Below, one piece after another: positions 2,872 through 20,413 of a stretch of 33,879 nucleotides of DNA (its first letter is position 1; each line of letters opens with the position of its first letter). The DNA lies in contig CAMKTN010000029.1 in the NCBI GenBank assembly GCA_946415705.1, positions 1-33,879 of the forward strand, given 5' to 3'. Both the position numbers and the translations under genes were made by a program. The notes beneath the pieces were generated by a model. The model saw nothing but the letters and a program-made list of their open reading frames with translations, was not told the DNA's origin and did no database searches. Source of the stretch: an uncultured Prevotellaceae bacterium (GTDB lineage: Bacteria; Bacteroidota; Bacteroidia; Bacteroidales; Bacteroidaceae).

Positions 2872-4392
2872 TCACCAAGGTTTCTCCTTAGCCACTGAAT
2901 AGTCAAGCACGATCTGTGCATTGACCTCCAGTGCATCATTGCTACCGCCAGGGACGTCAATCACCTCAGGCACTTCAAGCTCATCCTTTTTGACAATACC
3001 CGCCGATACATCCAATATCTGCTGAGCATCCACTTCGTTCACCTCATCGTCACCATTCACATCTCCAACCCTAAACACACCTATGAGTCCGTTGCGTGTT
3101 CGTGCGGTCACGGCTGTTCCGTCCGCCATTGTCATCGAAATCTGGTTGATTTTCACCTGATGACGATGGCCGGTGTCAATGGTGTCGGGCAGGAACACGT
3201 CGAAAGTTAACAGAGCCTGAGTAGCTGGTTCTGTTGTGCCACCAATGAAGGTGAAATCCCATAATTGCGCACCTTCCTCGATAATGGAAATGGTATCCAC
3301 TGCCTCGCAGATGGTTACCTCGTAGCCCACGGCCTTGTCGCTCAACACATAGTTGCTTGGATCCACCACAACGCCGGCGGGGAAGGTGATACGAATGTTC
3401 AGGTCTTTCACCACCTGGGTGCTGACCAGATTGATGCCATACTTGAGTGTGTCGCCAGGACGACCCGTCACAGTGTACAGGTAGTAGGCATAATCCGAGA
3501 TGGCTGGCATGTTGGGCTCACCGGGTGAACTGGGATTGAAGACAAACTGGGCATAGAAGTTCATATTCTCCTTACCCATCGTGTAGCTGAACGAGCGCAG
3601 GTTGGTATACAGCTCTCCGTTCAGGTACCAGCCCACAAAGTCATAGCCGCTGTTGGCATAGGCCGTGAAGGTATAAGTGCCGCCTTCGAGGAAGCGACCT
3701 GTGCTGCCATTGTAGTAACCACCGTCGGAACAAGTGGCTGTTACCGTGTGTCGCAGAATGGGGTCGTTGGGTTCAGCCGGCGAGCTGGGATTGAACACGC
3801 AGTTGGCCTTCAGCGTGTCGCCATCAACGGGCATCGTGTAGCTGAACGAAGTGCTCGTGGAAACGGTCTCGCCCTTGCGGTTCGTCCAGCCCTGGAAGCT
3901 GTAGCCACTCTCGATGTAAGCACTCACATTCACGCTCTTCCCAGCCAGATAGCGGCCCGCACCGCTGACTGAGCAGCCTTGCGTGGCCTCCAACCCAAGA
4001 CGGTAGTAGAGCGTAGTGCTTGGTTCGCTGGGCTCACTGGGGTTGCTGGGTGTAAACGCGTAATTGGCAACGAGTGTGTCCGTCAGTTCTGTGTTCACGA
4101 AGTTAAAGGAGGTTGCCGTACTGAGCACATTGCCCTTGGTGTCCGTCCAGTTCCGGAAGGTGTAGCCGGTGTTGACGTAGGCATAGACTTTCACGCTATT
4201 GCCCACGACATACCGCCCCGCACCGGAAACGCTACCAGCGTCGTCGATATTGCGCAAAAGCACAATCCGCGAGTACACGGTCGGCGGGCCAGGCTCCTCA
4301 GGCGACGACGGGTTGAAGTCGCCCTGGGCCTGGGCTGCGGTGTGCCCCATGAGGCACACCACAGCTGTTAACAGAAAACGTATCTTTTTCAT
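2872..4392 (-). CDS. secreted protein with three InlB-B-like repeats, a cohesin-like domain and a dockerin-like end
   Basis: This 506-residue protein has a signal peptide (MKKIRFLLTAVVCLMGHTAAQAQ). Three repeats follow at about 41-113, 128-200 and 213-293, each with a SGAGRYxxGxSVxVxAY-like strand and a GYxFxxW motif. These match divergent InlB B-repeat domains. Each is bracketed by a linker of the form FNPSSPxEP, seen four times. Residues about 300-435 look like a cohesin-type beta-sandwich. The end (438-506) has two dockerin-like calcium-loop helices, VGDVNGDDEVNEVDAQQILD and a second with DALEVNAQIVLD. The gene is 36 bases downstream of the LRR gene and 16 upstream of the cohesin-like gene. 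An adhesive or assembly role is inferred. Confidence 0.75.
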   Translation of the reverse strand: MKKIRFLLTAVVCLMGHTAAQAQGDFNPSSPEEPGPPTVYSRIVLLRNIDDAGSVSGAGRYVVGNSVKVYAYVNTGYTFRNWTDTKGNVLSTATSFNFVNTELTDTLVANYAFTPSNPSEPSEPSTTLYYRLGLEATQGCSVSGAGRYLAGKSVNVSAYIESGYSFQGWTNRKGETVSTSTSFSYTMPVDGDTLKANCVFNPSSPAEPNDPILRHTVTATCSDGGYYNGSTGRFLEGGTYTFTAYANSGYDFVGWYLNGELYTNLRSFSYTMGKENMNFYAQFVFNPSSPGEPNMPAISDYAYYLYTVTGRPGDTLKYGINLVSTQVVKDLNIRITFPAGVVVDPSNYVLSDKAVGYEVTICEAVDTISIIEEGAQLWDFTFIGGTTEPATQALLTFDVFLPDTIDTGHRHQVKINQISMTMADGTAVTARTRNGLIGVFRVGDVNGDDEVNEVDAQQILDVSAGIVKKDELEVPEVIDVPGGSNDALEVNAQIVLDYSVAKEKPW

Positions 4393-4428: not shown

Positions 4429-7400
4429 TTAGCGCACAACAACCTTGCTAACCTTCTTACCCTGTCGCAGCACATAGACACCAGCCCCGAGGCTCTTGGC
4501 ATTCTTGCCCAGATATTTGCCATCTACGCTGAAGACATCAGTCTGCACACCGTCGCCAGCTCCTTCTGTTTCAGTGATGCCCGTAGCATTGCCCGCAACG
4601 AAGCTCAGCGTGAAGCGTGAGTTGTAGGTACCACTTTCGGCGGCAAAAGAATATGCAGAAGAGGTGATTTCAGTGGTCTCACCTGTCTGGTTGTCGGTAA
4701 TGAACACTTGCGTTGCATCGCAACGGGTCACATTGATGCTGAAGTTGCCTGTGTGTCCGGCATAGAAGCCGAGGTTCACAGTGCCATCACCCATCGGGCG
4801 CTCGTTGATGGCATACTGCGTGCCATCGCTATCAAGCGTGTAGAGCTGCGGCACACTTGTTTCCATGCTCATAAACTTGGTGGCATCGCAGGAGGTTTCA
4901 TAAGCCATGCTGGCCTTCTCGTTCAGCACCACGCGTGTCTGGTCCTCCCATTCGCCGTCGCTGACGGTAAGGTTCACGAGCTGACGGGTGCGCACCTCTG
5001 GGAACTCTGCCTTCACTGCGTTCTGGCTCTCGATGACGGAGGTAAGTTGACGGCCTTGCAGGGGGAAACTGATGGTGTTGTACTCCTCATTGGGGCACTG
5101 CACGAAGAATGCCTCATTGGGACGGATGGCATAGTCGTCATCGGTCAGCGAGTAGGCGGTGTAAGTATTGTTATTTGGACTCCATACTGTAATGGGTGCG
5201 GTGAAGTTCAGGCAATGGTTATTATAGAAGCACTGGTAGGGGTTTCCCACGAGGTTCCAACCTCTGTCACTTGCCGTCTCGCTGGCGTTCACTTCAAGCG
5301 TTTTGATAAACTCATTATTCCTCAGTGTGCCATACTTGTTCTCCGTGTCGGCAGCATAAAACTTTGTCCAAATGTTATTTGTGGTAATGTTTGTCTGGAA
5401 AATGAAGCCTGTACCCGCAGGAATAATACTTGTGCGATCAACATTCTTCCAGTTGCCCGACTTACCATTTGCAGCACGACCAGCACCATCGTAATAGCGG
5501 ATGGCATATTGCGCACCATCACCTGGCTCTATTCTTGATACATCCAAATCAAAAGGTAGGGATACGAAATACCATTTCTTTGCTTCTGTGCCGAAACTCA
5601 AGATATTATCCCCTGTAGCCGTAATATTGTCACAATTATTCAGTAACTGTGTTTTACTACTGCTTGAGCCGGATTGGTTAACTTTTATATTGTTAAATAT
5701 TTGTTCGCCGTCACCATTAATTTTCAGGTAGTTATTCCCTGAATGGATTTCTATGTTTGGCTGTCCACCGAAACGCTCATGATTCAGTATCAAACTGCCA
5801 TAAAGATGAATGTCACCAATAGTGCTGTAGTCGAACGGCTCAATAGCCTTGGCATTGTACCAGTAGCTGTGAAGCTTATACTCGTTCACCAGATAGTGCG
5901 GCACTTGCAGGGTGACAGCAGTGATGTTGCTTAGGGGATATTCGCTGCTGATGGCAATTACGGTAGGTGACTTCAGTTTCACGGTCGTCAGTTTACCACA
6001 ATCCTGGAACACACCGTTAGCCAGCCAGTATTGGTTTATACCCAGTTCCACAGTTTCCATGTTTGTGCAGTTGGCAAAAGCATACTGACCGATGCTCGTA
6101 ACACTCTGTGGGATAACAAGAGACTTATATCCACGTGCATATCCAAACGCCTCTTCACCAATTGTAGTCAATGTTGATGGCAGGGGAGAGTTTATAGCCG
6201 CACAATTATAGAAAGCATATTTTTCTATGGTTTTCAAGCCTTCAGGTAGCGTAGTTTGCATACGATGACAAGTATAAAAAGCTGCTTCTCCTATGGTCTG
6301 AAGTTTCTCTGGCATCACGGCCTCGGTGATATAAGCCCCCCAATAGAAGGTGTTATTAGGTATCCTTGTCAGATTCTTTGGCAACACCAATTTCTCTAAC
6401 CAATACATATAGCTAAAGCAATAACCATCATAAGCCCCTCCATAGAAGTCTGTCATATTTTCGGGCATTATTAGTTCCTTCACATGACTATAGGAAAAAG
6501 CATTTTTACCGACCTTTCTCATAGTGGAGGGCAGGTTGATTTCCTCCACAAAAGAATATCTGAATGCCTCATCTCCCATCGTGGTCAGCCCTTCAGGCAG
6601 CACCACCTTATGCAGGAAATTCATTGTGGTGTCGTTGTAGCTAACCATGAACTGTTTGGCGGGAATCTCCGTGAACTGTGCCTCGCTGAGGTCAAGTTCT
6701 AAGAGCGTGGACATCATCTTGATTCTTCCCCAGTCATCGCTGTTCATCGGTCCCTTCACTTTCAGTCGACGCACATTCTTGATGTGGTCGGTATTATACA
6801 GGACTTCTGTGCCAAGACTACCCGGCTCTAACAGATTAACCGAAATTTGTTGCTTCGACATTACACCCACATCATATAAATAATATTCATCCCAAGAGGA
6901 AGTACTATTTCTTTCGCATGTCCAAGTAATCGTGTGCAGTCCAGGCTCCAGCTCTTCAAAGAAGCGAGTATGTGTTTTGTCCGTCGGATAATTTTGAAAT
7001 TGCTCTTGAGACAAGTATCGTACCTCTTCGCCATCCACATAAACCTTAAACCAATAGCCTCCACCATACAATCCATATACCAACGTGGAAGGTTCCTCCA
7101 CCAAGACGGTGGCACTGATGGAAGATTGGCCTTGACCCCAAATACGCCTCACAAAATAAGTGCTATGGTTATTCAAAGTCCAAGTATAATCTGAATTCTG
7201 TCCGAAACTGCCGTCTGCAGTGTAGAATAGGATTGGCCGCTCGTTCCACCACGGAGCCTGATAGCCAACGGACATAGAAAGAGACTTTCCAAGTGTACTG
7301 GCTGCATTATTAAGTTCTTCATTTGTACTTGCTTCATTGGCATAGATGGCCTCAAACTGGTCAATATAGTAATGATATTCATCAGCCCGACAGAGACGGT

Positions 7401-7932
7401 TATAAAGACGCATTCTTGCTATGTAGTCAAAACTCTCTTCCTCAGCAGGGAGTATCTTCCACACAATATAGCTTGTCGCATCTGCCCGAAGATCGTCATA
7501 GCCTGATACGAAACCCATATACTGGCTTTCATCGTAATAGCTGCTCTTCGGCGTCTGGAAGGTGTAGCCCCCATCAACTTCTGTAATAGAAAAAAGGGTC
7601 TTACTTGAACTATTTGCCTCAATTGTTGAGGATGAAGAGCGGTAAAAGTATCTGTTCGCGTCCGTCAATTTGATGGTGTAGTAGCCGTCATCTGTTGGCG
7701 TAATAGTCACTTTCGTAGCATGGCTACTGAATTGACGAGGATAGATAGTGTAGGTGCTGGCGGAAGGATTATAATGCACGGCTTGGTCATACCCCACATT
7801 GTACAGATAAAACTCGCCTCCGTCTGTTAGTGTTACGGTGGGTTCAGTTGGTGCAACTCTTTCAGCCCATGCATCCTGCACAAGACCTACACTTGCCAAA
7901 ACAACGGCAAGTAACAATCTAATTTTTTTCAT
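4429..7932 (-). CDS. BspA-like leucine-rich-repeat surface protein
   Basis: This 1,167-residue protein starts with a signal peptide (MKKIRLLLAVVLASVGLVQDAWA). Roughly residues 395-690 hold LRR_5/BspA-type repeats: repeated phrases such as LPEGLTTMGDEAFRYS, LPSTMRKVGKNAFSYS, LPEGLKTIEKYAFYNC and IPQSVTSIGQYAFANC. The region before them is beta-rich. Residues about 780-960 have WYFVSLPFDLDVSRI and WNLVGNPYQCFY motifs often seen in Bacteroidales surface proteins. The last 40 residues (FSVDGKYLGKNAKSLGAGVY, then VLRQGKKVSKVVVR) look like a C-terminal sorting tail. BspA proteins bind host or extracellular proteins; the ligand here is unknown. It is the first gene of the leftward operon and lies about 70 bases after the structured RNA. 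Confidence 0.85.
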   Translation of the reverse strand: MKKIRLLLAVVLASVGLVQDAWAERVAPTEPTVTLTDGGEFYLYNVGYDQAVHYNPSASTYTIYPRQFSSHATKVTITPTDDGYYTIKLTDANRYFYRSSSSTIEANSSSKTLFSITEVDGGYTFQTPKSSYYDESQYMGFVSGYDDLRADATSYIVWKILPAEEESFDYIARMRLYNRLCRADEYHYYIDQFEAIYANEASTNEELNNAASTLGKSLSMSVGYQAPWWNERPILFYTADGSFGQNSDYTWTLNNHSTYFVRRIWGQGQSSISATVLVEEPSTLVYGLYGGGYWFKVYVDGEEVRYLSQEQFQNYPTDKTHTRFFEELEPGLHTITWTCERNSTSSWDEYYLYDVGVMSKQQISVNLLEPGSLGTEVLYNTDHIKNVRRLKVKGPMNSDDWGRIKMMSTLLELDLSEAQFTEIPAKQFMVSYNDTTMNFLHKVVLPEGLTTMGDEAFRYSFVEEINLPSTMRKVGKNAFSYSHVKELIMPENMTDFYGGAYDGYCFSYMYWLEKLVLPKNLTRIPNNTFYWGAYITEAVMPEKLQTIGEAAFYTCHRMQTTLPEGLKTIEKYAFYNCAAINSPLPSTLTTIGEEAFGYARGYKSLVIPQSVTSIGQYAFANCTNMETVELGINQYWLANGVFQDCGKLTTVKLKSPTVIAISSEYPLSNITAVTLQVPHYLVNEYKLHSYWYNAKAIEPFDYSTIGDIHLYGSLILNHERFGGQPNIEIHSGNNYLKINGDGEQIFNNIKVNQSGSSSSKTQLLNNCDNITATGDNILSFGTEAKKWYFVSLPFDLDVSRIEPGDGAQYAIRYYDGAGRAANGKSGNWKNVDRTSIIPAGTGFIFQTNITTNNIWTKFYAADTENKYGTLRNNEFIKTLEVNASETASDRGWNLVGNPYQCFYNNHCLNFTAPITVWSPNNNTYTAYSLTDDDYAIRPNEAFFVQCPNEEYNTISFPLQGRQLTSVIESQNAVKAEFPEVRTRQLVNLTVSDGEWEDQTRVVLNEKASMAYETSCDATKFMSMETSVPQLYTLDSDGTQYAINERPMGDGTVNLGFYAGHTGNFSINVTRCDATQVFITDNQTGETTEITSSAYSFAAESGTYNSRFTLSFVAGNATGITETEGAGDGVQTDVFSVDGKYLGKNAKSLGAGVYVLRQGKKVSKVVVR

Positions 7933-8454: not shown

Positions 8455-9251
8455 CTAAAGCATATCCGCAAAATCCTTTATCACCTCAATGTCCTTTTCA
8501 ATCTCATCTATATTATGATTCATGAGTGTCTGGTTAAGTTGGTAATATTGGCATCTGTTGGCCATTGTTTGCTTTGGTCTTTTTGTGTCCATGGCAAGCT
8601 TCTTATAGAGTTTACTATCTTGCCTTTGGTTTCATACAAACGAGCCTTAAAGCAGTTGACAAGTGCAGTCCTGCTTAAGCCATTTGCTATCACTTGGTTT
8701 ATGTAAAACAGGGCTTCTTCTACACTTCTACTTCTGCTAACAATCTCAATATGCTGCCCCCATGGAACAAGTGCAAAAGGCAGAGGGAAATTAGCAGACG
8801 TGGTATTCCAAATTTCTGAAACAGGCTGTTTCACAATTTCTCCAACGGATCGTTGGAGTTTTATGCGCTCCTGATTTATAGACGCTTGCAATTCTCCAAC
8901 GAGTCGTTGGAGTTTTTCGGTATCAGCATCGTTAGAATAGAACAGATACCACTTTTTCATATACCATAGATTGGATGTAGAGAAACCATCCTCATTGGGA
9001 AACTCTCGTCTCAAATCCAGGCTTACCTGTTCAACTATTCCAGCGCCCCATCGCTCCTCGGCTTTCTTCTGCACAAGGTCACGCCCCATCTGCCAATTCC
9101 AAACCAGTTTCTCGGCATTCACTTTAACGGCAGCCTTTACTTGCGCCGAGCGGTAGCGGTGTTTCACCTCCGCTATCCACTCTGCATAATCAGCGTCTAA
9201 TGTTACATCGTGCGACTTCACAAAGAGTGGTTCGTTGCTATCTATTTCCAT
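8455..9251 (-). pseudogene. DUF1016/YhcG-family gene lacking its nuclease domain
   Basis: The open frame 8520-9251 (243 residues) gives the N-terminal DUF1016 domain: YAEWIAEVKHRYRSAQVKAA, WNWQMGRDLVQKK, RREFPNEDGFSTSNLWYMKKWY, PFALVPWGQHIEIV, then EEALFYINQVIANGLSRTAL. Full YhcG-like proteins continue past YETKGKxxxNF with a long C-terminal PDDEXK nuclease domain. Here the homology stops at LYETKGKIVNS and the frame ends after about 30 unrelated residues. A different frame (8455-8592) then gives a protein-like tail, MDTKRPKQTMANRCQYYQLN and ending KDIEVIKDFADML. This looks like a deletion that joined the gene out of frame to the 3' end of another. A lone TATCTTTG -7 box (9319-9312) lies upstream. 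Loss of function is inferred. Confidence 0.7.
8840..8917. repeat. two palindromic hairpins encoding the repeat KLQRxVGE
   Basis: CTCCAACG-GAT-CGTTGGAG (8840-8858) and CTCCAACGA-G-TCGTTGGAG (8894-8912) are near-identical palindromes 54 bases apart, each followed on the plus strand by a T-run. On the coding strand they give KLQRSVGE and KLQRLVGE. The same short DNA unit therefore acts as a hairpin and a protein repeat. Confidence 0.7.
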
Positions 9252-9319: not shown

Positions 9320-9430
9320 GGCAAAAAGTGAAAAATGAAGGAATGAAAAATGAAAAATCTTCGAGGAAAAGAGAAAAATGAAGGAAAAGTGAGAAAAATG
9401 AGAAGAGAAGCACGGAAAAATGACAGGAAC
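9320..9430. repeat. purine-rich low-complexity spacer
   Basis: GAAAAATGAAGG-like words repeat irregularly between the DUF1016 remnant and the nqr terminator. The stretch 9252-9446 has no gene. Confidence 0.5.
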
Positions 9431-9446
9431 AGTGGAATAATGGCGC

Positions 9447-9487
9447 GCAAAGAAAACGCTCCGCTGGTGTGAGACAGCGGAGCGTTT
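9447..9487 (-). terminator. Rho-independent terminator of the nqr operon
   Basis: On the minus strand AAACGCTCCGCTG (9487-9475) pairs perfectly with 9466-9454 across an 8-base loop, followed by TTTTCTTT. It lies 19 bases after the nqrF stop codon. Confidence 0.9.
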
Positions 9488-9506
9488 GTTTGAGGGTGGG
9501 TTGGTA

Positions 9507-10796
9507 TTAACCTCCGAAGTTATCGAAGCGGATCATGTCGTCTTCGACGCCGAGGGAGTGCAGGAGGTCGAGGACGGTCTTGGCCATCATAGGAGGACCG
9601 CAGAGGTAGTACTCACAGTCTTCGGGTGCCTCGTGAGCCTTGAGGTAGGTGTCGCCCATAACGGGAGCCACGAAGCCCGGGGTGTACTTGATGCCTGCTG
9701 CGTCGGCCTTGGGATCGGGACGGTCGAGAGCGAGGTGGAAGTGGAAGTTGGGGAAGTCCTTCTCGAGCTGCAGGAAGTCGTCGAGGAAAGGAATCTCTTC
9801 CAGCGCACGGGCGCCATAGAAGTAGTGCATGGGGCGCTTGCGGTCTTCGTCCTTCACGCCGTGGCCCTTGAGCATGTGCATGATCTGTGCACGCAGGGGA
9901 GCCATACCGGCACCACCGCCGACCCAGATCATCTCGCGACCAGTGCCGTACTGCGGACGGAACTCACCGTAAGGGCCACTCATGATGACCTTGTCACCGG
10001 GCTTCAGGCTGAAGATGTAGCTGGAAGCGATACCGGGGTTGACGTCCATGAAGCCAGGACCTTGCTCCTTCGGCTTGAAGGGAGGTGTAGCGATACGGAC
10101 GTTGAGGGTGATGATGTCGCCCTCGTCGGGATAGTTGGCCATGGAGTAAGCACGGATGGTGGGTTCGGGGTTCTTACACTTGAGCGGGAAGAGGCCGAAC
10201 TTCTCCCATGCGGGCAGATAGGTGTCGCCGATGAGGGACTTGTCGAAGTCCTTGTCGTAGTCGATGCAGTCGAAAGCGGGAATCTTGATCTGAGCGTAGG
10301 AACCGGGCTCGAAGTCCATGTGCTCGCCAGCAGGCAGAGCCACCTTGTACTCCTTGATGAACGTTGCCACGTTCTTGTTGCCGATAACGGTGCACTCCCA
10401 CTCCTTGACGCCGAGGACGCTGTCGGGCACCTTGATGCCGAGGTCGCCCTTGACCTTGCACTGACAGCCGAGGCGCCAGTGGTCCTTCTGTTCCTTGCGG
10501 GTGAAGTGTCCCTTCTCAGAGTCAAGAATCTCACCGCCACCTTCTACGACCTGGCATTTGCACTGGCCGCAGGAGCCCTTACCACCACAGGCTGAGGGGA
10601 GATAGACACCTTCAGCGGCGAGGGTGGAGAGCAGGCTTGCGCCCTGCGGCACGGACAGCTTGTCCTTGCCATTCATTGTAATCGTGACATTACCACTCGG
10701 CGAGAGGTATGCCTTTGCGACAAGCAGAATGATGACCAACGCGATGATAATCACGAGGAAAACCACAATGCTTGTGAGAATTAAAGAAGTATTCAT
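9507..10796 (-). CDS. nqrF: Na+-translocating NADH:quinone reductase subunit F
   Basis: NqrF is the NADH-oxidising entry point of the Na+-NQR complex. It passes electrons from NADH through FAD to a 2Fe-2S centre on the cytoplasmic side. The 429-residue protein has one N-terminal membrane helix (about 5-28). A plant-type ferredoxin domain follows with C70, C76, C79 and C111 ([11 protein letters not shown] then GCQC). The FAD domain has RAYSMANYP, and GPYGEF follows. The NADH domain has [13 protein letters not shown] and [11 protein letters not shown]. Length fits the family (about 410-430). It is the last gene of the operon, separated from nqrE by a 112-base spacer with repeats and followed by a strong terminator. 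Confidence 0.97.
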
Positions 10797-10804
10797 TTTC
10801 TTTT

Positions 10805-10905
10805 TAGTTGACGAGTTATTAGTTGACGAGTTGACGAGTTATTTGACTTGGTGTTGAGTCTTGGATAGTACCAACTTGTTTACTTGTCAACTTGTCAACT
10901 TGTCT
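10805..10905. repeat. octamer repeats forming an imperfect inverted pair between nqrE and nqrF
   Basis: The spacer carries tandem GTTGACGA units on one side (about 10806-10840) and tandem ACTTGTCA units on the other (about 10882-10904). The two are imperfect reverse complements, so the transcript could fold into a hairpin between nqrE and nqrF. It could lower or protect nqrF expression relative to upstream genes; that is inference. Confidence 0.65.
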
Positions 10906-10908
10906 ACT

Positions 10909-11535
10909 TTAGAGATTTAATCCGCTGAAGCACATGAAAGCCATAGCCATCAGGCCGACGGTGATGAACGTAATGCCGAGGCCCTGGAGGGGCTTGGGCA
11001 CATCGGTGTAGGCCATCTTCTCGCGAATGGCAGCCAGGCAGGTGATAGCCAACAGCCAGCCGATACCGGAACCAAGGGCGTAGGCCACAGCATCCCAGAT
11101 GCCGGTGATAGCCTGGGAGTTGGTGTCGGGCATAGTGATGCGCTGCTGCATGAACAGCGAGGCACCCATGATGGCGCAGTTCACGGCAATCAGGGGGAGG
11201 AAGATACCGAGGGCGGCATACAGCGAGGGGCTGAAGCGCTCGACGATCATCTCCACCAGCTGCACGATGGCGGCAATCACGGCGATGAAGAGGATGAATG
11301 ACAGGAAGCTCAGGTCAACGCCCTCCACCAAGCAGTCGGGGCCAAGGACATAAACTTGCAACAGGTAGTCAACGGGAACGGTGATGAGCAGCACAAAGGT
11401 GACTGCCACGCCGAGGCCGAGGGCGGTCTTCACGGTCTTGGACACGGCCAGATAGGAGCACATACCCAGGAAGAACGCGAAAATCATATTGTCCACAAAG
11501 ATGGAGCGGACGAATAGGCTTAATAGATGTTCCAT
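10909..11535 (-). CDS. nqrE: Na+-translocating NADH:quinone reductase subunit E
   Basis: NqrE is a membrane subunit with six helices that, with NqrD, holds an iron centre in the membrane and forms part of the sodium path. The 208-residue protein shows the family start [20 protein letters not shown], then [13 protein letters not shown], and the later segment [11 protein letters not shown], containing the family cysteines. Hydrophobic helices fill nearly the whole length. It begins 2 bases after the nqrD stop codon, so the two are almost certainly co-translated. Length matches the family (about 200). Confidence 0.97.
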
Positions 11536-11537
11536 AA

Positions 11538-12161
11538 TTACTGAAGGTCTTTATTATATGCTCTGTGTGCCCAGATGACGCAGCCGACGAGGATCAGGGA
11601 CATCGCGGGCATGGTCATCATACCATTGTTCACATAACCGTGGTCATAGCACCACTGCGGAACAACCTGGAAGCCGAGCAGTGTGCCGGCACCGAGGAGT
11701 TCACGGAAGAAGCCTACGATGACGAGGATGATGGCGTAGCCGATGCCGTTGCCAATACCGTCGAGGAACGAAGGCCAGGGTTTGTTCATCATGGCAAACG
11801 CCTCGAGGCGACCCATGAGGATACAGTTGGTGATGATAAGACCGACATAGACGGAGAGCTGTACGCTAACGTCATAGGCGAAGGCCTTGAGGACCTGGCT
11901 GACGATGGTCACCAGCGCAGCGACAACCACCAGTTGCACGATGATACGTATGCGGTTGGGGATGGTGTTGCGCAGGAGAGAGATAATCAAGTTGGAGAAG
12001 GCGGTGATGATGGTCACGGAAAGACCCATCACGATGGCAGGCTCGAGCTGAGCCGTTACAGCCAAGGCCGAGCAGATACCGAGCACCTGCACTACAACGG
12101 GGTTGTTCAGGTTCAGCGGACTGATCAGTGCCTCCTTATTTGCTTTGGATAACATACTCAT
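11538..12161 (-). CDS. nqrD: Na+-translocating NADH:quinone reductase subunit D
   Basis: NqrD is a six-helix paralogue of NqrE, arranged in the membrane with opposite topology so that the two share an iron centre. The 207-residue protein has [20 protein letters not shown] near the start and [15 protein letters not shown] in the middle, both family hallmarks with conserved cysteines. It follows nqrC after a 40-base gap containing AAAGTTT repeats and is 2 bases from nqrE. Confidence 0.97.
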
Positions 12162-12201
12162 ACTTTCGTAAAGTTTAATGTTGAAAGTTTAAAGTTTAAA
12201 G

Positions 12202-13380
12202 TTAGCGCTGTCCACAGCAAGCCTTGTCGCCATCGCAACCGGGCTTCCCGCAGGAACCACTCTTGTCACATTTGCCGCTCTTGCAGCAGTCGCTGCCGCT
12301 TTGGCACTTAGGGGCTTCAGCCTTCTCAGGGCAGCCACCGCAGCCCTGCTGAGCTTGGGGACAACCCTCGAGCTGTCCGCAGCCCTCGTGCTTCTTCTCG
12401 CAGGGAGCAGCCTTCTCGCAGCAGGCGCAAGGGCACTCTTCGCGAGCGCAGCACTTAGCATCGGAAGCACAGTTGCAAGCTGCATCACCACAGCTGCCGT
12501 CCTTGCAAGCGCAGGCCTTCTTTTCAGCACAATTGCAGTCGGGCTTCTCGCAGCACTTGGGAGCATTCTTGCAGCTTCCAGCAGGCTTGCCAGCACCGAG
12601 AGCATCTACATACTGTTGGATACCGCTGAGCACCATTTCGCCAACACCCTTGGAGGTGAGGGTTGCGCCGGTGACGCCGTCAATCTGAGTCTCGGCTTCA
12701 CTGGCACCTTTCTTCACAACGGTGAGGGCCACCTTGCCATCAGCGCCCATCACAGGACGACCGATGAACTGGCTCTGGAACTTCTCCTCCTTGATGAGGG
12801 CACCGAGACCGGCGGTCTCGCTCTCATGGTCGAAGTAAGCACCGAGGACCTTCTGGAAGTCGGGTGTCACAGCTACATAACCCCAGAGGCCACCCCAAAG
12901 GCCGCGACCTTTCAAGGGCAGGACAAGGGCTTCGTCGCCAGCGGCGGTCTTAGCCTTATAGACAGGGAACTTCTCGCCAATCTCCTTGGTCTCGACCTCG
13001 AAGGCACCGCCTTCGGTGACCTGACCGTCGGGCGTGACGACACATGTCTCCTGAATCAATTCGTCGAACTTCGCTTCCACGTCGCTCTTAGCGATGCCGC
13101 GAACGTTGAGGGAAGCAAGAATCTGTTTCTTCTTATCGATAGCCACGTTGGCATCCTGAGCAGGCTTCAGCGCGCTGCTGACGAAGGCCAACAGGAAGGC
13201 TACGAGCACCACCATTACGGCTGCATAGCAGATGGTATAGACATTGCCGTTGGTGTTAATGCCCTTTGCTTTCACCTCCTTGATATGTGAGGCGTCAGCG
13301 CCGCAGATAGGGCACTTGTCGGGCATTGATGCGGCTTCAAATGTCTGGCCGCACTGACTGCATATAAATTTCTTTGCCAT
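12202..13380 (-). CDS. nqrC: NqrC with an N-terminal rubredoxin-like knuckle and a cysteine-rich C-terminal tail
   Basis: The core is NqrC, the periplasmic FMN subunit of Na+-NQR. It has one membrane helix (about 48-70) and a FMN-binding domain with GLGALI (about 191-196) and the flavinylation motif DGVTGAT, whose T240 should carry FMN by a phosphoester bond. Usual NqrC proteins are about 200-260 residues; this one has 392. Two additions explain it. Residues 1-35 form a rubredoxin- or zinc-knuckle-like unit (FICSQCGQ...DKCPICGA; C7, C10, C23, C26) that should lie in the cytoplasm. Residues 269-392 are a tail with 29 cysteines in 124 residues, many as CC or CxC, like a metallothionein, likely on the outer side. 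The reading frame is continuous. Metal binding is inferred from composition. Confidence 0.95.
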   Translation of the reverse strand: MAKKFICSQCGQTFEAASMPDKCPICGADASHIKEVKAKGINTNGNVYTICYAAVMVVLVAFLLAFVSSALKPAQDANVAIDKKKQILASLNVRGIAKSDVEAKFDELIQETCVVTPDGQVTEGGAFEVETKEIGEKFPVYKAKTAAGDEALVLPLKGRGLWGGLWGYVAVTPDFQKVLGAYFDHESETAGLGALIKEEKFQSQFIGRPVMGADGKVALTVVKKGASEAETQIDGVTGATLTSKGVGEMVLSGIQQYVDALGAGKPAGSCKNAPKCCEKPDCNCAEKKACACKDGSCGDAACNCASDAKCCAREECPCACCEKAAPCEKKHEGCGQLEGCPQAQQGCGGCPEKAEAPKCQSGSDCCKSGKCDKSGSCGKPGCDGDKACCGQR

Positions 13381-13385
13381 ATCTG

Positions 13386-14555
13386 TTACTTTTTAATTGC
13401 GCGTTTAGCACGTTTTGAAATATTACTGCTGACGAAGCAGTAGTCGATGAGCGGAGCGAACAGGTTCATGAGCAGGATGGCCAACATCATTCCTTCGGGG
13501 TAACCGGGGTTCATCACACGAACCGTGACAGCCACGAAGCCAATGAGGAAGCCATAGATCCACTTACCGCCTTCCGTGCGGGCAGAGGTGACAGGATCGG
13601 TAGCCATGAAGACGGCACCGAAGCAGAAGCCACCGAGCACGAGGTGCTGCACAGCATCGAGGGGCGAGAGGCCGAGGGCGTTGTAGAGCCAACCCGTGCA
13701 GGCACCGCCTACGAACACGCTGAGCATGGTCTTCCAGCTGGCAACACCAGTCCACAGCAGCAGGCAGGCGCCAAGGGCAATGGCAATGACACTGGTCTCG
13801 CCGATGGAACCGGGGATAAGACCTGTGATCTGGTCGCTGAGAGAGGTGCTGAGGGCACTGGCGCCGGCGGCAATCTCACCCAACGGGGTAGCAGCTGAGA
13901 ACGTGTCGGGCACATCGAAGCCGAGGCCCCAGATAGCGTTCTGGGCCACCCAGACGGAGTCGTCGCCCGTCATGCTGGAGGGATAAGAGAAAAAGAGGAA
14001 CGCGCGCGTGATGAGAGCGACGTTGAAGATGTTCATACCTGTGCCACCGAAAATCTCCTTGGCGAAGATGACGGAGAAGGCCACGGCGATGGCGAGCATC
14101 CACAACGGCGTGTTCACGGGGACGATCATGGGGATGATGATACCTGATACGAGGAAGCCTTCCTGGATCTCCTCGTTCTTCCACTGCGCAACGGTGAACT
14201 CGATGCCGAGACCCACGACATAGCTGACAATCAGCTTGGGCAGCACGGCCAGGAAACCAAACCAGAACATGCCCCAGAAGGTGGCATTCTCCAGTTGACC
14301 GGCAGCGAGCGCATTCTGATAACCTACGTTATACATTCCGAAGAGCAACGCAGGCACAAGCGCGATGACAACGAGCGACATAATGCGCTTGCTGTCGATG
14401 GCATCGTGGATGTGCGTACCGCCCACGCGTGCCGTGGTGTTGGGCACGAAGGCGAACGTCTCGAAGCCATCATAAAGCGAACGGAAGGCGTGGAGCTTGC
14501 CACCCTCCTCGAAGTTCGGCTTTATCTTGTCGAAATATTTTCTTAATGCATTCAT
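13386..14555 (-). CDS. nqrB: Na+-translocating NADH:quinone reductase subunit B
   Basis: NqrB is the large membrane subunit that carries a covalent FMN and riboflavin and forms the main sodium channel. The 389-residue protein has many hydrophobic helices and the family segments KEIFGGTGMNIFNVALITRA and NPGYPEGMMLAILLMNLFAP. The flavinylation site usually reads (S/T)GAT; here it is DTFSAATPLG with T223, so alanine replaces the glycine. The gene lies 5 bases after nqrA and 5 before nqrC. The sequence and operon position leave little doubt about identity. Confidence 0.97.
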   Translation of the reverse strand: MNALRKYFDKIKPNFEEGGKLHAFRSLYDGFETFAFVPNTTARVGGTHIHDAIDSKRIMSLVVIALVPALLFGMYNVGYQNALAAGQLENATFWGMFWFGFLAVLPKLIVSYVVGLGIEFTVAQWKNEEIQEGFLVSGIIIPMIVPVNTPLWMLAIAVAFSVIFAKEIFGGTGMNIFNVALITRAFLFFSYPSSMTGDDSVWVAQNAIWGLGFDVPDTFSAATPLGEIAAGASALSTSLSDQITGLIPGSIGETSVIAIALGACLLLWTGVASWKTMLSVFVGGACTGWLYNALGLSPLDAVQHLVLGGFCFGAVFMATDPVTSARTEGGKWIYGFLIGFVAVTVRVMNPGYPEGMMLAILLMNLFAPLIDYCFVSSNISKRAKRAIKK

Positions 14556-14560
14556 AATCT

Positions 14561-15889
14561 TTAAGCGTTTTCCTTGCGGAGGATGTCAAGACCCTCGCGC
14601 ACAATGCGTTGCAATTCCAGTTTTGAACTATCCACGAACTCGGCGATGGCGAAGTCCTCGGGAGCCACCTCGTAGATGCCGAGGGCTTCCTGGCGGTCAA
14701 TATCACCGGTGATGATAGCCTTCACGAGATAGCCGGCATAGATGTCCATGGGGAACACACGGTCGTACTCGCCCGACATGATCATGTGGCGCTCGCCACC
14801 TTTGATGCGGGCATCCAGCGTGTATTCGGCCTTCTTCGGACGCAGCCAGCTGAAATAGCTGCGGCTAGTGGAGAACTCCTTGAAGCGGGGAGCAATCCAT
14901 CCGAGCATCTCATAGACGTCATCGCCCTCGGGAATCACGGTGACCTCCGTAGCGTGTGCTGCGAGCCAGCCGTCCTTCGAGGTCTTCACGCCGACCATGG
15001 GGTTGCCGTTGATGATGCGGAGGCTCTTGCTCTCGTCGATCTGTCCAGCGAGGATGGCCTTGATGGGCTGTCCCACGAGCGTCTTAGCGTACTTGGGTGC
15101 CTTTACCTCGGAACCTGCGACAGCGATGGTGCGCGTGAAGTCCACCTTCTTGGTGAGAGCCAGACGGCCGATGAAGATGACCTCCTCAGCGCCGAGCGTC
15201 CACACGACCTCGCCCTTGTTAATGGGATCCACGTGGTTGATCTGCACGCCTACATTGCCAGCAGGAGCAGGACCGTTGAACACGTTGATGGTGCAGTCCT
15301 TGGCTGCGGTCAGCGCCTGCGCCTTCTGCTTACTGCTGATGCCGAGGTTCACCTTGGCAATCTTGGCCAGCAGCGAGAGACCTGCCTGCCACTCCTTCTC
15401 CTGTCCCTGGAGGACATACTCGAAGTCAGCAGCCAGCGGCATGCTGTTGAAAGCACTCACGAAGATAGCCTTGGGCTTGTCCTCGGGGTTAGCCACCACG
15501 TCATAAGGACGCATGCGGAAGAACCCGAACAAACCGCTTTCGAGCAGCAGCTTCAGCGCGTCCTTCTCGTCGAAGGTCTTGGCTGTCTGCTTGCCGTCGG
15601 CATCTACGCGTACGCTCATCACCTTACGGCGCTCGCCGCGCTCCACAAGAGCCACGGTGCCACTGACAGGTGAAACGAACTTTACTTCGGGATGGCTCTT
15701 GTCCACAAACAAGGCATCCCCGACCTTGACGGCATCACCCTCCTTGACAACGACCTTGGGTTTCATGCCACAAAAGTCATCGGGGACCAGCGCATACTGG
15801 CCCTCCACCTTTGTCTGCATGCTTTCCAAGCTCGCTTTGCCCTTCAGGTTTACGTCGAGGCCTTTGCGTAACTTGATTACATTTGCCAT
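14561..15889 (-). CDS. nqrA: Na+-translocating NADH:quinone reductase subunit A
   Basis: NqrA is the cytoplasmic peripheral subunit associated with quinone binding in Na+-NQR. The 442-residue protein begins MANVIKLRKGLDVNLKGKA, the usual start of the family, and has GMKPKVVVKEGDAVKVGD and KFVSPVSGTVALVERGERR near the N-terminus (a lipoyl-like beta domain). The frame is open for a further 220 codons upstream, but that part is unlike NqrA and crosses the promoter and the divergent tamB gene, so the start at 15889 is used. It is the first gene of nqrABCDEF. Confidence 0.96.
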   Translation of the reverse strand: MANVIKLRKGLDVNLKGKASLESMQTKVEGQYALVPDDFCGMKPKVVVKEGDAVKVGDALFVDKSHPEVKFVSPVSGTVALVERGERRKVMSVRVDADGKQTAKTFDEKDALKLLLESGLFGFFRMRPYDVVANPEDKPKAIFVSAFNSMPLAADFEYVLQGQEKEWQAGLSLLAKIAKVNLGISSKQKAQALTAAKDCTINVFNGPAPAGNVGVQINHVDPINKGEVVWTLGAEEVIFIGRLALTKKVDFTRTIAVAGSEVKAPKYAKTLVGQPIKAILAGQIDESKSLRIINGNPMVGVKTSKDGWLAAHATEVTVIPEGDDVYEMLGWIAPRFKEFSTSRSYFSWLRPKKAEYTLDARIKGGERHMIMSGEYDRVFPMDIYAGYLVKAIITGDIDRQEALGIYEVAPEDFAIAEFVDSSKLELQRIVREGLDILRKENA

Positions 15890-15912
15890 ATAAAATAAGT
15901 AAGAATAAATGG

Positions 15913-15938
15913 TTTTAGCTAAAAACTGCGCAAAAATA
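15913..15938 (-). promoter_or_regulatory. nqr operon promoter (-7 box) and start-site palindrome
   Basis: TATTTTTG (15938-15931) matches the Bacteroidetes -7 box; no clear TTTG is seen at the -33 distance. The expected start near 15924 falls at the edge of the palindrome TTTTAGCTAAAA (15913-15924), leaving a leader of about 35 bases before nqrA. Confidence 0.55.
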
Positions 15939-15978
15939 AAGAAAAATCGGCATTCGACACGCATAAACGGCCAACTAT

Positions 15979-16010
15979 TTTGTCTAGAAAGCAAAAAAAC
16001 ACTACTTTTG
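15979..16010 (+). promoter_or_regulatory. promoter match inside the annotated start of tamB
   Basis: TTTG (15979-15982), a 20-base spacer and TACTTTTG (16003-16010) fit the Bacteroidetes consensus on the plus strand. The only usable tamB start codon upstream of the membrane helix (TTG at 15980) overlaps the -33 box. A transcript from here would begin near 16017. Confidence 0.6.
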
Positions 16011-19000
16011 CTCTCACAAAACACCAAGGAACCATCAAAAGGCTCAGTTATATCGTCCGCTTTGTGGTAGTATTCGCACTCGTCGGCTACCTCGGGCTGT
16101 TGCTCTTCACGGCGATGCCGGCGTGTCAGCGCTGGTTGGCCGCGAAGTCTTCTGATATCCTGTCGCGTGAGCTGCAGACCGATGTGCAGATTGGCAACGC
16201 GCGCATCGGCCTGCTGAACCGCATCGTCCTTGACGATGTACTGCTTCACGATCAGCAGGGGGATACCCTCGTGAGTGCTACGCGCCTCAGCAGTAAGCTG
16301 GATGTCTGGCAGCTCCTCAACGGCCGCATCCGCATTGCCAATGTGCAGCTTTTCGGCTACGACATACGCCTGCATCGAGCGGACACGCTGTCGCCATATA
16401 ACTTCCAGTTCCTCATCGACCGCTTTGCCTCCGAGGACACCACCTCTACCCCACTCGATTTGGCCATCAACAGCATCCTCATCCGACGTGGAAACATCTC
16501 TCACGACATCGACAGCGAACCCTTCGCAGACCATTTCACGCCCGCCCATGCCAGGCTGGAGAACTTCAATCTAAAGGCCCAAATCAATACTCTCACCAAC
16601 GACAGCATATCTCTCGACATTAAAGAGTTATGCTTCACGGAATCTCGCAGTGAGTTTATTCTTGAGAACCTTTCCATGCAGCTGGAAGGCAACCTGCAAC
16701 ACGCAGCCCTCACAGACCTGTCCGTGGAGTTACCGCAGTCTAACATAGAGGTTCCCATGCTGACCCTTGACGGCGGCATCACCTCGTGGCGCAACAACCA
16801 GGGGCGCCTGCGTCTGCACGGGCAGCTGACGCCCGCAGACATCGCGGCCTTCGCGCCCGTCCTTAAATCCTTCCAGGCGCCTCTACATATCGACCTCAAA
16901 GCGGACAAGCAGGCAAGGTGGCTTGGCCTGCAGGAGCTCTCGCTGGACGCACATGGCTTCGACCTACAGCTGCAGGGGCATGGACTGCTGTCCCCCACCG
17001 ACAGTAGTGCCCACCCCATTGATGAGCTGCAGCTCACGCTCGACCGCCTGCAGATGAATCCATCTTTCTACCTGCCTATCCTACAAGCGCTCAGCGATAC
17101 CCAGCCAAAACCCGTCATCCCCGTGGAAACCGCTGAAATGATCAGCCGTCTGGGCGCCGTCTCGCTCGCAGGCGAATGGGAAAAAAGCTTCCTCCACGAC
17201 GTGATGAAGGGGCATCTACTGGCGCAGACGGAATTAGGCAATGTGAAAGCCGAAGGTCGCATGACAGCTCACGACCTCTTCACGGCGCAAGTCGAAAGCG
17301 AATCCATCCAGTTGGCCTCACTCCTGTCCGCCGACGGCCAGTTCCCCATCAACGACCTCACACTGACAGGTGATTTCGAAGGCAGCATCAGCCAGCGTCA
17401 AATCAAAGGCAGCGCCAAGCTCAGGGACTTCATCGTCAAGGGCTCCCGCCTCGACCTCCTCACCACGACCTTCAACATCTCGCCCCAAATCCTCCGCAGC
17501 CAGACGGAGCTCATCGACGACGAGTACAACCTGAAGCTCACCACCGACCTGCAAACGCCCAAGGAGTGGAAAATGGATCTCGCCTCGCTGGAGGACCTGC
17601 AGGGCTTTGTCGGCTTGGACCGCGTGAGCGTGCGCCACGAGGACGAGGCCTATGAGCTGCGCCAGCTACATGTTTCTACCGCCAACGACAGCCATGGCCA
17701 CCACTTGCTGCTCAGCGGCGACTTCATCGAAGCCCACGCCGACGGTAAGTTCCGCTACGCCAGCCTGGCGCCCGCCGTGCAACAGCTCCTGCATCAAGCT
17801 TTGCCTTCACTCGTTGCGGCACCTAAGACCGGCGCTGTGGAGCCCGATGAGAAGCTGAACTTCTCCGTCAGCATCTGGAACTCCACACCGCTACTTCAGC
17901 TGGCTGGTATCAACCTCACCCTGCCCCAGCCCGGATATATCGAGGGCGAGCTGAACGTGCCTACCAGCGAGTTCTCCGTGATGGCCGACTTCCCGCACAT
18001 CATCTACGGCGGCGAGGAGATGCGTGCCGTGAGTATGCTGGCCCGTCAGGAGCGCGACAGCCTTACCTCCTTCATCACCCTGCAACGCATGATGGAGAGC
18101 GGACCGATGGATCTCTCCGTGCTGGCCGAAGGCGGGCATGACCGCCTCCATTCCGTACTCGCGTGGGACGACCACAACGAGCCCTCGCAGCGCGGTGAGC
18201 TCTCTACCATCGCCACCTTCTTCAAGGACGAGAAATCGAATCTGGGCGCCGACATCCGCTTCCAGCCCACGAGTATCATGATCTCCGATACCATCTGGAA
18301 TGTCCACGAGTCACAGGTACGCTACCATGACCGTATCGTGGATGTAAGCGGCTTCCAAGTTTCGCAGGCAGGGCGCCATCTGCGCGTGGATGGCCGCGTC
18401 TCGCAGAACAGCGCCGACACCCTCTATGCTGACCTGAGCGGTATCAACCTCCAATATATCTTCGGTATCATTGACTTCCACGATGTAGAGTTCGAGGGCT
18501 TCGCCACTGGCGGTGTGAAGATCCACAACATCTACGAGAACATCGCTGTCGATGCTGACCTGCGCGTGGATGACCTGAAGCTCAACGGTGGCTTGCTGGG
18601 CGAGGCTCACGTCATCGGCGGCTTCGGGCGCAAGGATGAGCGCGCCATAGACCTTGATATTCTTGTGCGCGAACCCGTGCGCAACGAGCTCAGTCATATC
18701 TTCGGCATCGTGAAGCCCGGGCACGAACCGGGACGCGGCATGGACCTCAACATACAGGCCCGCTACCTGAACATCTACTTCATCAACTTCTTCACCGAGG
18801 ACATCTTCGATAACCTGCAGGGGCGCTCCACCGGCTACGCCTACCTCCACGGTCCCTTCAAGCAGCTTGACCTCGAAGGGCTACTGACCCTCGATACGCT
18901 CGACGTGGGTATCCCTGTCCTCGGCACGCGCTACCACACGCTCGGAGGCGACACTCTCCGTCTCTACCCGGGCGGCATCAGCGTCGCCAACGCTCACATC

Positions 19001-20413
19001 TACGACCAGCACCACGGCACCGACAACCGCCGCCACGAGGCCCTTCTCAGCGGCGCGCTGAGCTTCGAGCATTTCAAGAACCTGCGTTATGTCTTCGACA
19101 TCGAAGCACATGACTTTCTTGGCTATGACTTCAAGGAATTCGGCGACCAGGTCTTCTGCGGCACCGTCTTCGCCGACGGCAACGTTCACCTCGCTGGCCA
19201 GCCCGGCACGCTAAATGTGGATGTGCAATGCAGTCCCACACAAGGCACCGTCTTCACCTACAATGTCTCCACGCCCGAGACACTGACGGAGAATGAGTTT
19301 ATAACCTACAAGGAGAAAAACCACCTGGCCCCCCCTTCGCCCCCCGAGGGTGGCACTGATGCTCAATCCAATACTGATGATGGTAATGTAGCCCCCTCGG
19401 GGGCAGAAGAGGGGGCCACTTCTGACGAGCCCACGGATATGTACATCAACTTCGACCTCGACATCACGCCAGCGGCACAGATGCGGTTGTTGATGGATCC
19501 CCGTACTGATGATTATATAGACCTCTACGGCGATGCGCATATACGCGCGAACTTCTATAATAAAGGGCGTTTCCAAATGTACGGCACCTACCGCGTCGAT
19601 CACGGCACCTATCGCCTCTCGCTGCAGGATGTCATCCGCAAGGAGTTCCGCTTCCAACAGGGCAGCACCATCGTCTTCGGCGGCGACCCGATGAAGGGTA
19701 GCCTGAACCTGCAGGCCATCTACACCGTCCCCAGCGTCTCGCTCAACGACCTGGCCGTGGGTAATAATTTCTCCAGCGGCAATGTGCGCGTGAACTGCCT
19801 CATGAACATCGGCGGCACGGCCGGACAGCCGCAGGTGACCTTCGACTTCGACATTCCCAATGTCAACGAGGACGAGAAACAGATGGTTCGCTCGCTCATC
19901 TCTACCGACGAGGAACGTAATATGCAGGTCATCTACCTCCTCGGCATCGGACGTTTCTACACGCAGGACCTCGCTGCAGGGCAGAGCCAGACCAATGCTG
20001 CCATGACGAGCCTCCTCTCCTCCACCATCTCCGGACAGCTCAACAACCTCCTCGGCACCATCATCGGCAACAGCAACTGGAACTTCGGCACCAGCCTCTC
20101 CACCGGCACACAAGGCTGGAACGAGGTTGATGTCGAAGGAATGCTCAGCGGACGCCTCCTCAACAACCGCCTCCTCATCAACGGCACCTTCGGCTACCGC
20201 GACACTCCCATCGCCAACACCAACTTCATCGGCGACTTCGATGTCCAGTGGCTCCTCACCCCCAACGGCGGCATCAGCCTGAAAGCCTACAGCGAGACCA
20301 ACGACCGCTACTTCACTAAGACGGCCCTCACCACCCAGGGCGTAGGCATCCAGGTGAAGAAAGACTTCAACACCCTCCGCGAGCTCTTCCGCTTCCGCCG
20401 ACGCAAGCAATAA
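15980..20413 (+). CDS. tamB: TamB-like translocation and assembly module protein
   Basis: This protein of up to 1,477 residues has an N-terminal membrane anchor (IVRFVVVFALVGYLGLLLFT, about 25-45). A long AsmA/TamB-type beta-helical body follows (ILSRELQTDVQIGNARIGLL and onward). The C-terminal DUF490/TamB domain includes NIGGTAGQPQVTFDFDIPNV and ERNMQVIYLLGIGRFY. TamB family proteins span the periplasm, linking the inner membrane to outer-membrane assembly or lipid transport. A palindromic repeat at 19326-19418 adds a proline/glycine-rich segment (about residues 1116-1147). The start is uncertain: TTG at 15980 lies in a promoter match, and no ATG occurs before the one after the membrane helix. 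The gene is divergent from nqrA and ends 13 bases from the convergent clpC end. Confidence 0.88.
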   Translation: MSRKQKNTTFALTKHQGTIKRLSYIVRFVVVFALVGYLGLLLFTAMPACQRWLAAKSSDILSRELQTDVQIGNARIGLLNRIVLDDVLLHDQQGDTLVSATRLSSKLDVWQLLNGRIRIANVQLFGYDIRLHRADTLSPYNFQFLIDRFASEDTTSTPLDLAINSILIRRGNISHDIDSEPFADHFTPAHARLENFNLKAQINTLTNDSISLDIKELCFTESRSEFILENLSMQLEGNLQHAALTDLSVELPQSNIEVPMLTLDGGITSWRNNQGRLRLHGQLTPADIAAFAPVLKSFQAPLHIDLKADKQARWLGLQELSLDAHGFDLQLQGHGLLSPTDSSAHPIDELQLTLDRLQMNPSFYLPILQALSDTQPKPVIPVETAEMISRLGAVSLAGEWEKSFLHDVMKGHLLAQTELGNVKAEGRMTAHDLFTAQVESESIQLASLLSADGQFPINDLTLTGDFEGSISQRQIKGSAKLRDFIVKGSRLDLLTTTFNISPQILRSQTELIDDEYNLKLTTDLQTPKEWKMDLASLEDLQGFVGLDRVSVRHEDEAYELRQLHVSTANDSHGHHLLLSGDFIEAHADGKFRYASLAPAVQQLLHQALPSLVAAPKTGAVEPDEKLNFSVSIWNSTPLLQLAGINLTLPQPGYIEGELNVPTSEFSVMADFPHIIYGGEEMRAVSMLARQERDSLTSFITLQRMMESGPMDLSVLAEGGHDRLHSVLAWDDHNEPSQRGELSTIATFFKDEKSNLGADIRFQPTSIMISDTIWNVHESQVRYHDRIVDVSGFQVSQAGRHLRVDGRVSQNSADTLYADLSGINLQYIFGIIDFHDVEFEGFATGGVKIHNIYENIAVDADLRVDDLKLNGGLLGEAHVIGGFGRKDERAIDLDILVREPVRNELSHIFGIVKPGHEPGRGMDLNIQARYLNIYFINFFTEDIFDNLQGRSTGYAYLHGPFKQLDLEGLLTLDTLDVGIPVLGTRYHTLGGDTLRLYPGGISVANAHIYDQHHGTDNRRHEALLSGALSFEHFKNLRYVFDIEAHDFLGYDFKEFGDQVFCGTVFADGNVHLAGQPGTLNVDVQCSPTQGTVFTYNVSTPETLTENEFITYKEKNHLAPPSPPEGGTDAQSNTDDGNVAPSGAEEGATSDEPTDMYINFDLDITPAAQMRLLMDPRTDDYIDLYGDAHIRANFYNKGRFQMYGTYRVDHGTYRLSLQDVIRKEFRFQQGSTIVFGGDPMKGSLNLQAIYTVPSVSLNDLAVGNNFSSGNVRVNCLMNIGGTAGQPQVTFDFDIPNVNEDEKQMVRSLISTDEERNMQVIYLLGIGRFYTQDLAAGQSQTNAAMTSLLSSTISGQLNNLLGTIIGNSNWNFGTSLSTGTQGWNEVDVEGMLSGRLLNNRLLINGTFGYRDTPIANTNFIGDFDVQWLLTPNGGISLKAYSETNDRYFTKTALTTQGVGIQVKKDFNTLRELFRFRRRKQ
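19326..19418. repeat. palindromic element in frame inside tamB
   Basis: The 25-base arm 19326-19350 is a near-perfect reverse complement of 19394-19418, with about 43 bases between. It is made of C- and G-runs with central CCCGAGGG / CCCTCGGG words. It keeps the frame and codes for a proline/glycine/glutamate-rich loop (PPSPPEGG ... APSGAEEGA). Confidence 0.8.

Follow-up and report, generated by a model that had tools for sequence, protein, structure and literature searches.

The window, as we call the whole 33,879-nucleotide stretch of DNA analyzed here, contains an nqrA-B-C-D-E-F cluster that lies wholly on the minus strand, from position 15889 down to 9507 (Table 1). A mechanical reading of the nqrA ORF runs to position 16549 and would add 220 residues at the N terminus; we rejected this extension because matches to the NqrA family begin at residue 221 to 225, and the 442-residue version is a full NqrA. 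A first-pass annotation of this DNA had described the nqrC product as an NqrC with a CxxC...CxxC unit at residues 7 to 26 and 29 cysteines in residues 269 to 392. These coordinates and counts are right; the minus-strand orientation of the gene had gone unstated. The cysteines are at residues 7, 10, 23, and 26, then at 51 and 113, and the remaining 29 are all within residues 269 to 392.

Table 1. Features of the nqr cluster and of the nqrC product
Feature	Position	Strand	Description and basis
nqrA	14561..15889	-	442 aa from likely true start; family profile matches
nqrB	13386..14555	-	Family profile matches
nqrC	12202..13380	-	392 aa, NADH:quinone reductase (Na+-transporting) subunit C; profile matches and fold match to 3lwx
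N-terminal rubredoxin-like unit of NqrC, PF21349 RUBY_RBDX, residues 6-32	13285..13365	-	Profile match
Membrane part of NqrC N-terminal helix, about residues 48-70	13171..13239	-	AlphaFold2 model and known NqrC topology
FMN-binding domain of NqrC with T240	12625..12903	-	FMN_bind and TIGR01938
Cysteine-rich C-terminal tail of NqrC, residues 269-392, 29 Cys	12205..12576	-	Cysteine count and low pLDDT (AlphaFold2)
nqrD	11538..12161	-	Family profile matches
nqrE	10909..11535	-	Family profile matches
nqrF	9507..10796	-	Family profile matches

In 79 of 80 named relative loci, nqrC is preceded by nqrB and followed by nqrD on the same strand, and the complete nqrA–F set is present in 70 of the 80. 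The source genome comprises 2.49 Mb in 76 contigs and is 83.6% complete. The named near relatives of the window are genomes of uncultured Bacteroidaceae, Prevotellaceae, or Bacteroidales, and the sources given for them are largely the rumen or other herbivore gut sites. A 243-residue DUF1016_N protein is encoded next to the nqr cluster (8520–9251, minus strand), and a 1167-residue BspA-type leucine-rich repeat protein lies beside an InlB-type repeat protein (4429–7932 and 2872–4392, both minus strand). No metal-resistance family was found among the 12 window ORFs scanned, which cover the window up to about 23 kb.

The first-pass annotation had allowed that the tail might come from an assembly error. 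We rejected an assembly error or a wrong frame in the tail-bearing nqrC as unlikely because full-length proteins 94 to 97% identical to it are encoded on other contigs (cluster P0002, with 39 member sequences and a longest contig of 122 kb), the same operon recurs in the named loci, and selection acts in the same frame.

The NqrC core and its N-terminal unit

The product of nqrC scored 166.1 bits against the TIGR01938 nqrC equivalog (cut-off 144), which places it within NqrC; the PRK05346 equivalog models listed scored below their own cut-offs. FMN_bind spans residues 160 to 252 (55.8 bits; cut-off 22). The motif GVTGATLTS puts the FMN-site threonine at T240, in agreement with the first-pass assignment, and we regard T240 as the putative site of covalent FMN. 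The flavin transferase ApbE is needed for covalent FMN. It is present in 29 of 31 genus-sample genomes, and the window's own incomplete genome is among the two in which it was not found; its absence there is perhaps a gap in the assembly.

Structure modeling, which had been proposed at the outset, gave an ordered N-terminal unit and core followed by a tail without a predicted fold. In the AlphaFold2 model, the mean pLDDT per 10-residue block is 89 to 96 over residues 1 to 30, 79 to 97 over residues 51 to 260, and 33 to 58 from residue 261 on, and the tail is predicted to be disordered. The model matches the fold of 3lwx (Foldseek, E = 3.0e-16). Its long helix extends from residue 43 to 90; the range of about 48 to 70 previously given for this helix holds for the membrane part. 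According to passages of PMC12174285, NqrC has a single N-terminal transmembrane helix, and its FMN domain lies in the periplasm and moves back and forth between NqrD/E and NqrB. If the known topology applies here, the N-terminal unit would be cytoplasmic. The tail would be periplasmic, since it is hydrophilic and is placed after the FMN domain, which is periplasmic in known NqrC.

Residues 1 to 40 alone, with their four cysteines in the CxxC...CxxC arrangement, scored 40 bits against PF21349 (cut-off 26.5), which assigns the N-terminal unit to that family. A Pfam scan of the full-length protein did not report PF21349, which we assume to be owing to the composition of the tail. Foldseek aligned the NqrC model with the rubrerythrins 1ryt and 1b71 at rmsd values of 1.6 and 1.4 over 36 and 35 columns, with probability 1.00 and weak E values (0.13 and 0.2); we take these matches to cover the N-terminal unit of the model, the range being absent from the output. 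PF21349 and FMN_bind are already paired in the precomputed annotation of many NqrCs. Among the 29 best order-level loci besides the window, three have the unit (L137, L140, and L142), and on a 93-row tree of NqrCs its state changes 17 times, so that it has been gained or lost repeatedly. The N-terminal unit is an ordinary, widespread, catalogued Pfam domain, and its story is separate from that of the tail. In the open-access literature, NqrC and rubredoxin were found together only in PMC5924567, which concerns Clostridium ultunense.

A rubrerythrin-like protein encoded on contig C41 of the same genome (L002) has an N-terminal rubredoxin unit 43% identical to that of NqrC. L002 is named a rubrerythrin from its sequence, and it is a possible source of the N-terminal domain of NqrC.

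Composition and distribution of the cysteine-rich tail

Cysteine makes up 29 of the 124 tail residues, and the tail contains no phenylalanine, tryptophan, or tyrosine; it is thus metallothionein-like in the sense of high cysteine content without aromatics. Over 80 proteins (the window's included), the tails consist of 21.6% cysteine, followed by glycine, lysine, alanine, and glutamate, with 0.1% phenylalanine, 0.0% tyrosine, tryptophan not among the residues listed, and almost no hydrophobic residues. The interquartile range of the cysteine fraction is 0.19 to 0.23 despite tail lengths of 40 to 181 residues and cysteine numbers of 7 to 44. The cysteines are also regularly spaced. In 81 tails, 49% of the gaps between cysteines are of 4 to 5 residues (15% in shuffles) and 0.7% are of 3 residues (11% in shuffles), although the compared tails are related to one another, so that neither spacing nor composition amounts to independent observations. 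CC, CxC, and CxxC were not enriched over shuffles in the same tails. Cysteine number is even in 36 tails and odd in 45, a lack of even-number preference that gives no hint of a fixed disulfide fold. In a survey of 2822 ORFs of at least 60 residues, drawn from 1,014,632 bases of the window and the fetched loci, some of which overlap each other, every ORF with at least 12 cysteines within 50 residues was an NqrC. The cysteine richness of the tail is beyond chance.

We searched for relatives of the tail outside NqrC. It matched no Pfam family at E values up to 1 and no PDB chain, metallothioneins included, at E values up to 10, and short cysteine-rich sequences are hard for such tools; by sequence, then, neither Pfam nor the PDB places it in a metallothionein family. 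Against 5.8 billion clustered proteins, the tail region alone gave 64 matches among 69 candidates, and all 64 carry FMN_bind. When the search was limited to proteins of about 69 to 219 residues, one of two candidates matched, and it too carries FMN_bind; it is probably a fragment of NqrC. Within these protein searches, which depend on 5-residue words in common and could miss distant relatives, the tail is found on NqrC only, and an independent gene for it was rejected. The window's own genome shows a single copy, and the RnfG of its RNF cluster has no such tail.

Mapping both additions on a tree of relatives, as the first-pass annotation had suggested, placed the tail in the whole of the window's clade and a PF21349-type unit in 71 of 93 NqrCs. 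The 93 rows come from 112 loci after removal of L002, of L032 (a copy of L001), and of rows that duplicated another in both core and tail; the loci are the best matches to the query rather than a random sample, and the later loci L117–L136 and L137–L165 stand outside the tree. We counted a cysteine tail where at least 7 cysteines made up at least 12% of the tail. The window's clade of 25 rows, the window included, has support of 100/100 and carries 7 to 45 tail cysteines in every row; it consists of metagenome-assembled genomes, in which the tail is read from the gene sequences. Cysteine-rich tails also occur in eight rows on other branches (L022, L024, L026, L030, L065, L073, L074, and L109), where by eye they look to be built of other units. 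The tail state changes at least 5 times at the main threshold and at least 5 to 8 times over five thresholds, with gain and loss not distinguishable. In the window's genus (g1), 34 genomes were searched; at least 7 tail cysteines are present in 13 of the 31 whose NqrC was read. Beyond the window, none of the 29 other order-level loci (the best 30 from 119 genomes searched) has a cysteine-rich tail; one of them, L138, is from the same family as the window. L082, L091, L093, and similar loci have NqrC tails of about 30 to 60 residues that are rich in valine, proline, alanine, and glutamate and free of cysteine, so that extension of the NqrC C terminus reaches beyond the cysteine-rich cases.

Across the 93 NqrCs, 24 have both additions, 9 the tail only, 47 the N-terminal unit only, and 13 neither. 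An independent-pairs test gave a median p of 1, with few informative pairs. The two additions show no association and are not one joint invention. The earlier picture of two added modules in different compartments is right as anatomy, if the known topology applies; the N-terminal unit is widespread and the tail is lineage-specific. It had also been anticipated that close relatives might lack both parts; 13 of 93 rows do, but the tail is present throughout the window's own clade.

These distributions bear on the earlier suggestion that the tail delivers iron to the NqrD/NqrE center. In its fullest form, the tail would store iron for the [2Fe-2S] site of NqrD/NqrE and replace the maturation protein NqrM. 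NqrM (PF04400) was matched in none of 61 genus-sample and none of 61 phylum-sample genomes, the own genome being in both; the search was equally silent in all 14 control genomes, so this silence carries no weight. Many relatives share the operon and have an NqrC without a cysteine tail (60 of 93 rows fall below the threshold), and passages of PMC6560451 describe a functional NQR in Prevotella bryantii with an NqrC of 210 residues. On both counts the suggestion is weakened: iron delivery to NqrD/E is unlikely as a general requirement, and we consider storage in place of NqrM highly improbable.

Alternatively, the tail could be a redox-active thiol sink, its thiols taking electrons from the NqrC flavin or quenching oxidants formed there. 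Instead of holding metal, it would then protect the pump of an anaerobe against air or disulfide stress. The tail directly follows the FMN domain, its many cysteines show no even-number preference, and a rubrerythrin-type domain occupies the opposite end of NqrC; PMC7283201 reports damage to the P. bryantii NQR by oxidation during oxic cell rupture. A mere thiol store, however, would not need cysteines spaced regularly at 4 to 5 residues, the tail has no predicted fold, and its occurrence is not associated with that of the N-terminal unit. We judge this alternative unlikely.

Selection and turnover of the tail

Among the 25 clade members, the cysteine columns of the tail are on average 94% conserved, compared with 73% for the other columns (30 cysteine and 103 other columns, each with at least 10 rows filled). 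The codons in the cysteine columns are TGC (451) and TGT (126), others being rare; this mixture indicates that synonymous change occurs while the cysteine stays. Over those 240 of 300 possible pairs with 60 or more aligned codons in the tail and a core dS above 0, median omega is 0.18 in the tail, against 0.09 in the core. The alignments behind the tail value are uncertain, and dS is close to saturation (median 1.25). The highest single-pair value, 0.95, belongs to the very close pair L001–L007 and derives from few changes. Judged by these comparisons, the tail is real and its cysteines are kept by selection.

The sequence around the cysteines is far less stable. The window and the named relative L041 share 99% DNA identity in windows over the NqrC core; in tail windows, identity falls to 78%, 46%, and 10% (with gaps of 0, 39%, and 89%) and then returns to 86% and 97%. 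Segments of nqrB, nqrD-E, and nqrF are 94 to 96% identical by blastn. Shallower dips occur near the end of nqrB (87%) and around the nqrE–nqrF junction (75–81%); the tail is thus the deepest but not the sole divergent place, which counts against its reading as a cassette. In the comparison with L007, the core protein is identical and a portion of the tail is missing. P0069 and P0077 have matching cores, and the match between their tails spans 46% of the longer tail. TRF found tandem repeats in 13 of 33 distinct cysteine tails, with periods of 18 to 48 that are all multiples of 3, although 3 of these tails have a consensus length that is not. The tail changes by in-frame repeats, deletion, and replacement.

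Over a larger stretch (window positions 9393–19191), the segment from nqrA upstream is 81% identical to L041, with 82 to 86% in upstream windows and 87 to 95% in nqrA windows. It looks as if part of the nqr operon had recombined between species.

One alternative is nearly neutral repeat growth: additions at the C terminus would be tolerated, slippage would expand GCT/TGC-rich triplets, and cysteine richness would be a by-product. The in-frame repeat periods, the relatives with cysteine-free tails such as L082 and L093, and the omega of the L001–L007 pair fit this account; the conserved cysteine columns with their TGC/TGT exchange, the low median omega, the regular spacing, and the retention of cysteine richness in all 25 clade rows while the unit sequences differ do not, and we find it quite unlikely. 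A variable interaction surface is another candidate: a tether or decoy under diversifying selection by partner proteins, phage, or toxins, with cysteines for cross-linking. The replacement of the tail in L041 beside a nearly unchanged core would suit it, as would the weak correlation between core and tail identity (Spearman 0.27; 3160 pairs, 80 proteins). A median omega well under 1 and conserved cysteine columns speak against diversifying selection, and the location is probably the periplasm rather than the cell surface; this account strikes us as very unlikely.

A candidate thiol/metal module on a sodium pump

A steady cysteine fraction, regular spacing, few hydrophobic residues, disorder, and free sequence change together fit a thiol module for metal or oxidants. 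The reading we favor, with middling confidence, is that the tail is a periplasmic metallothionein-like thiol/metal module in which spacing counts over fold and the cysteines are under selection, the N-terminal unit being separate. The NqrC helix and FMN domain would hold the disordered tail in the periplasm, where it would act through the number and spacing of its thiols rather than through a fixed fold. It would bind metal ions of soft or borderline character (zinc, copper, cadmium, silver), perhaps also buffer oxidants, and thereby protect the pump or lower free metal beside it. In-frame tandem duplication, deletion, and replacement would remodel the tail as selection kept its cysteines, and the rubredoxin-like unit would be a separate, more widespread addition on the cytoplasmic side. 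We infer metal binding, a benefit to the cell, and, from homologous structures, the compartments. Passages of PMC6560451 report that micromolar silver inhibits NADH:quinone activity in P. bryantii, which makes it plausible that the tail protects NQR from soft metals. More tentatively, this respiratory sodium pump may repeatedly have gained such a metallothionein-like module in the periplasm, attached to its moving flavin subunit, with selection acting on thiol density alone; the sequence of the module could then be freely reassembled out of short tandem units and exchanged among lineages.

We found no description of an NqrC with a cysteine-rich tail or metallothionein in the open-access literature searched. 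What appears to be new is the hypervariable cysteine tail on an otherwise ordinary NqrC; the N-terminal domain was already known. Within the papers searched, the first-pass view of an undescribed form holds for the tail and not for the N-terminal unit, which Pfam annotation already includes. NQR is described as an energy-converting pump of the Prevotellaceae, which are abundant in the rumen. If the tail is a large, selected, fast-remodeled thiol module, stress from metals or oxidants on the periplasmic side is presumably of importance to this pump in the gut, and related NqrC cores, with anywhere from 0 to 45 cysteines in the tail, form a natural series in which such a role could be tested.

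Relative to the NqrC of Parabacteroides distasonis (3lwx) and the NQR of Vibrio cholerae, the FMN domain, N-terminal helix, FMN-site motif, and nqrABCDEF operon are alike, and the window's NqrC adds the rubredoxin-like unit and the 124-residue cysteine-rich tail. The former shares its CxxC...CxxC unit and weak but close fold matches with the rubredoxin-like domain of rubrerythrin (PF21349); unlike that domain, it is fused to an integral-membrane pump subunit, and iron binding by its four cysteines is putative. Metallothioneins as a class are about a fifth cysteine with practically no aromatic residues, and so is the tail, likewise without a predicted fold. In contrast to metallothioneins, to which it has no sequence match, the tail is longer, is joined to a membrane redox enzyme, and spaces its cysteines at 4 to 5 residues rather than in enriched CxC or CxxC; a metal–thiolate cluster in it is putative. 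PMC6255694 describes a C-terminal extension of the plant zinc ATPase HMA4 in which di-cysteine motifs give nanomolar zinc affinity. This extension and the NqrC tail are both cysteine-bearing C-terminal extensions on membrane transport proteins, from different protein families, organisms, and compartments, so that the likeness is a functional analogy only.
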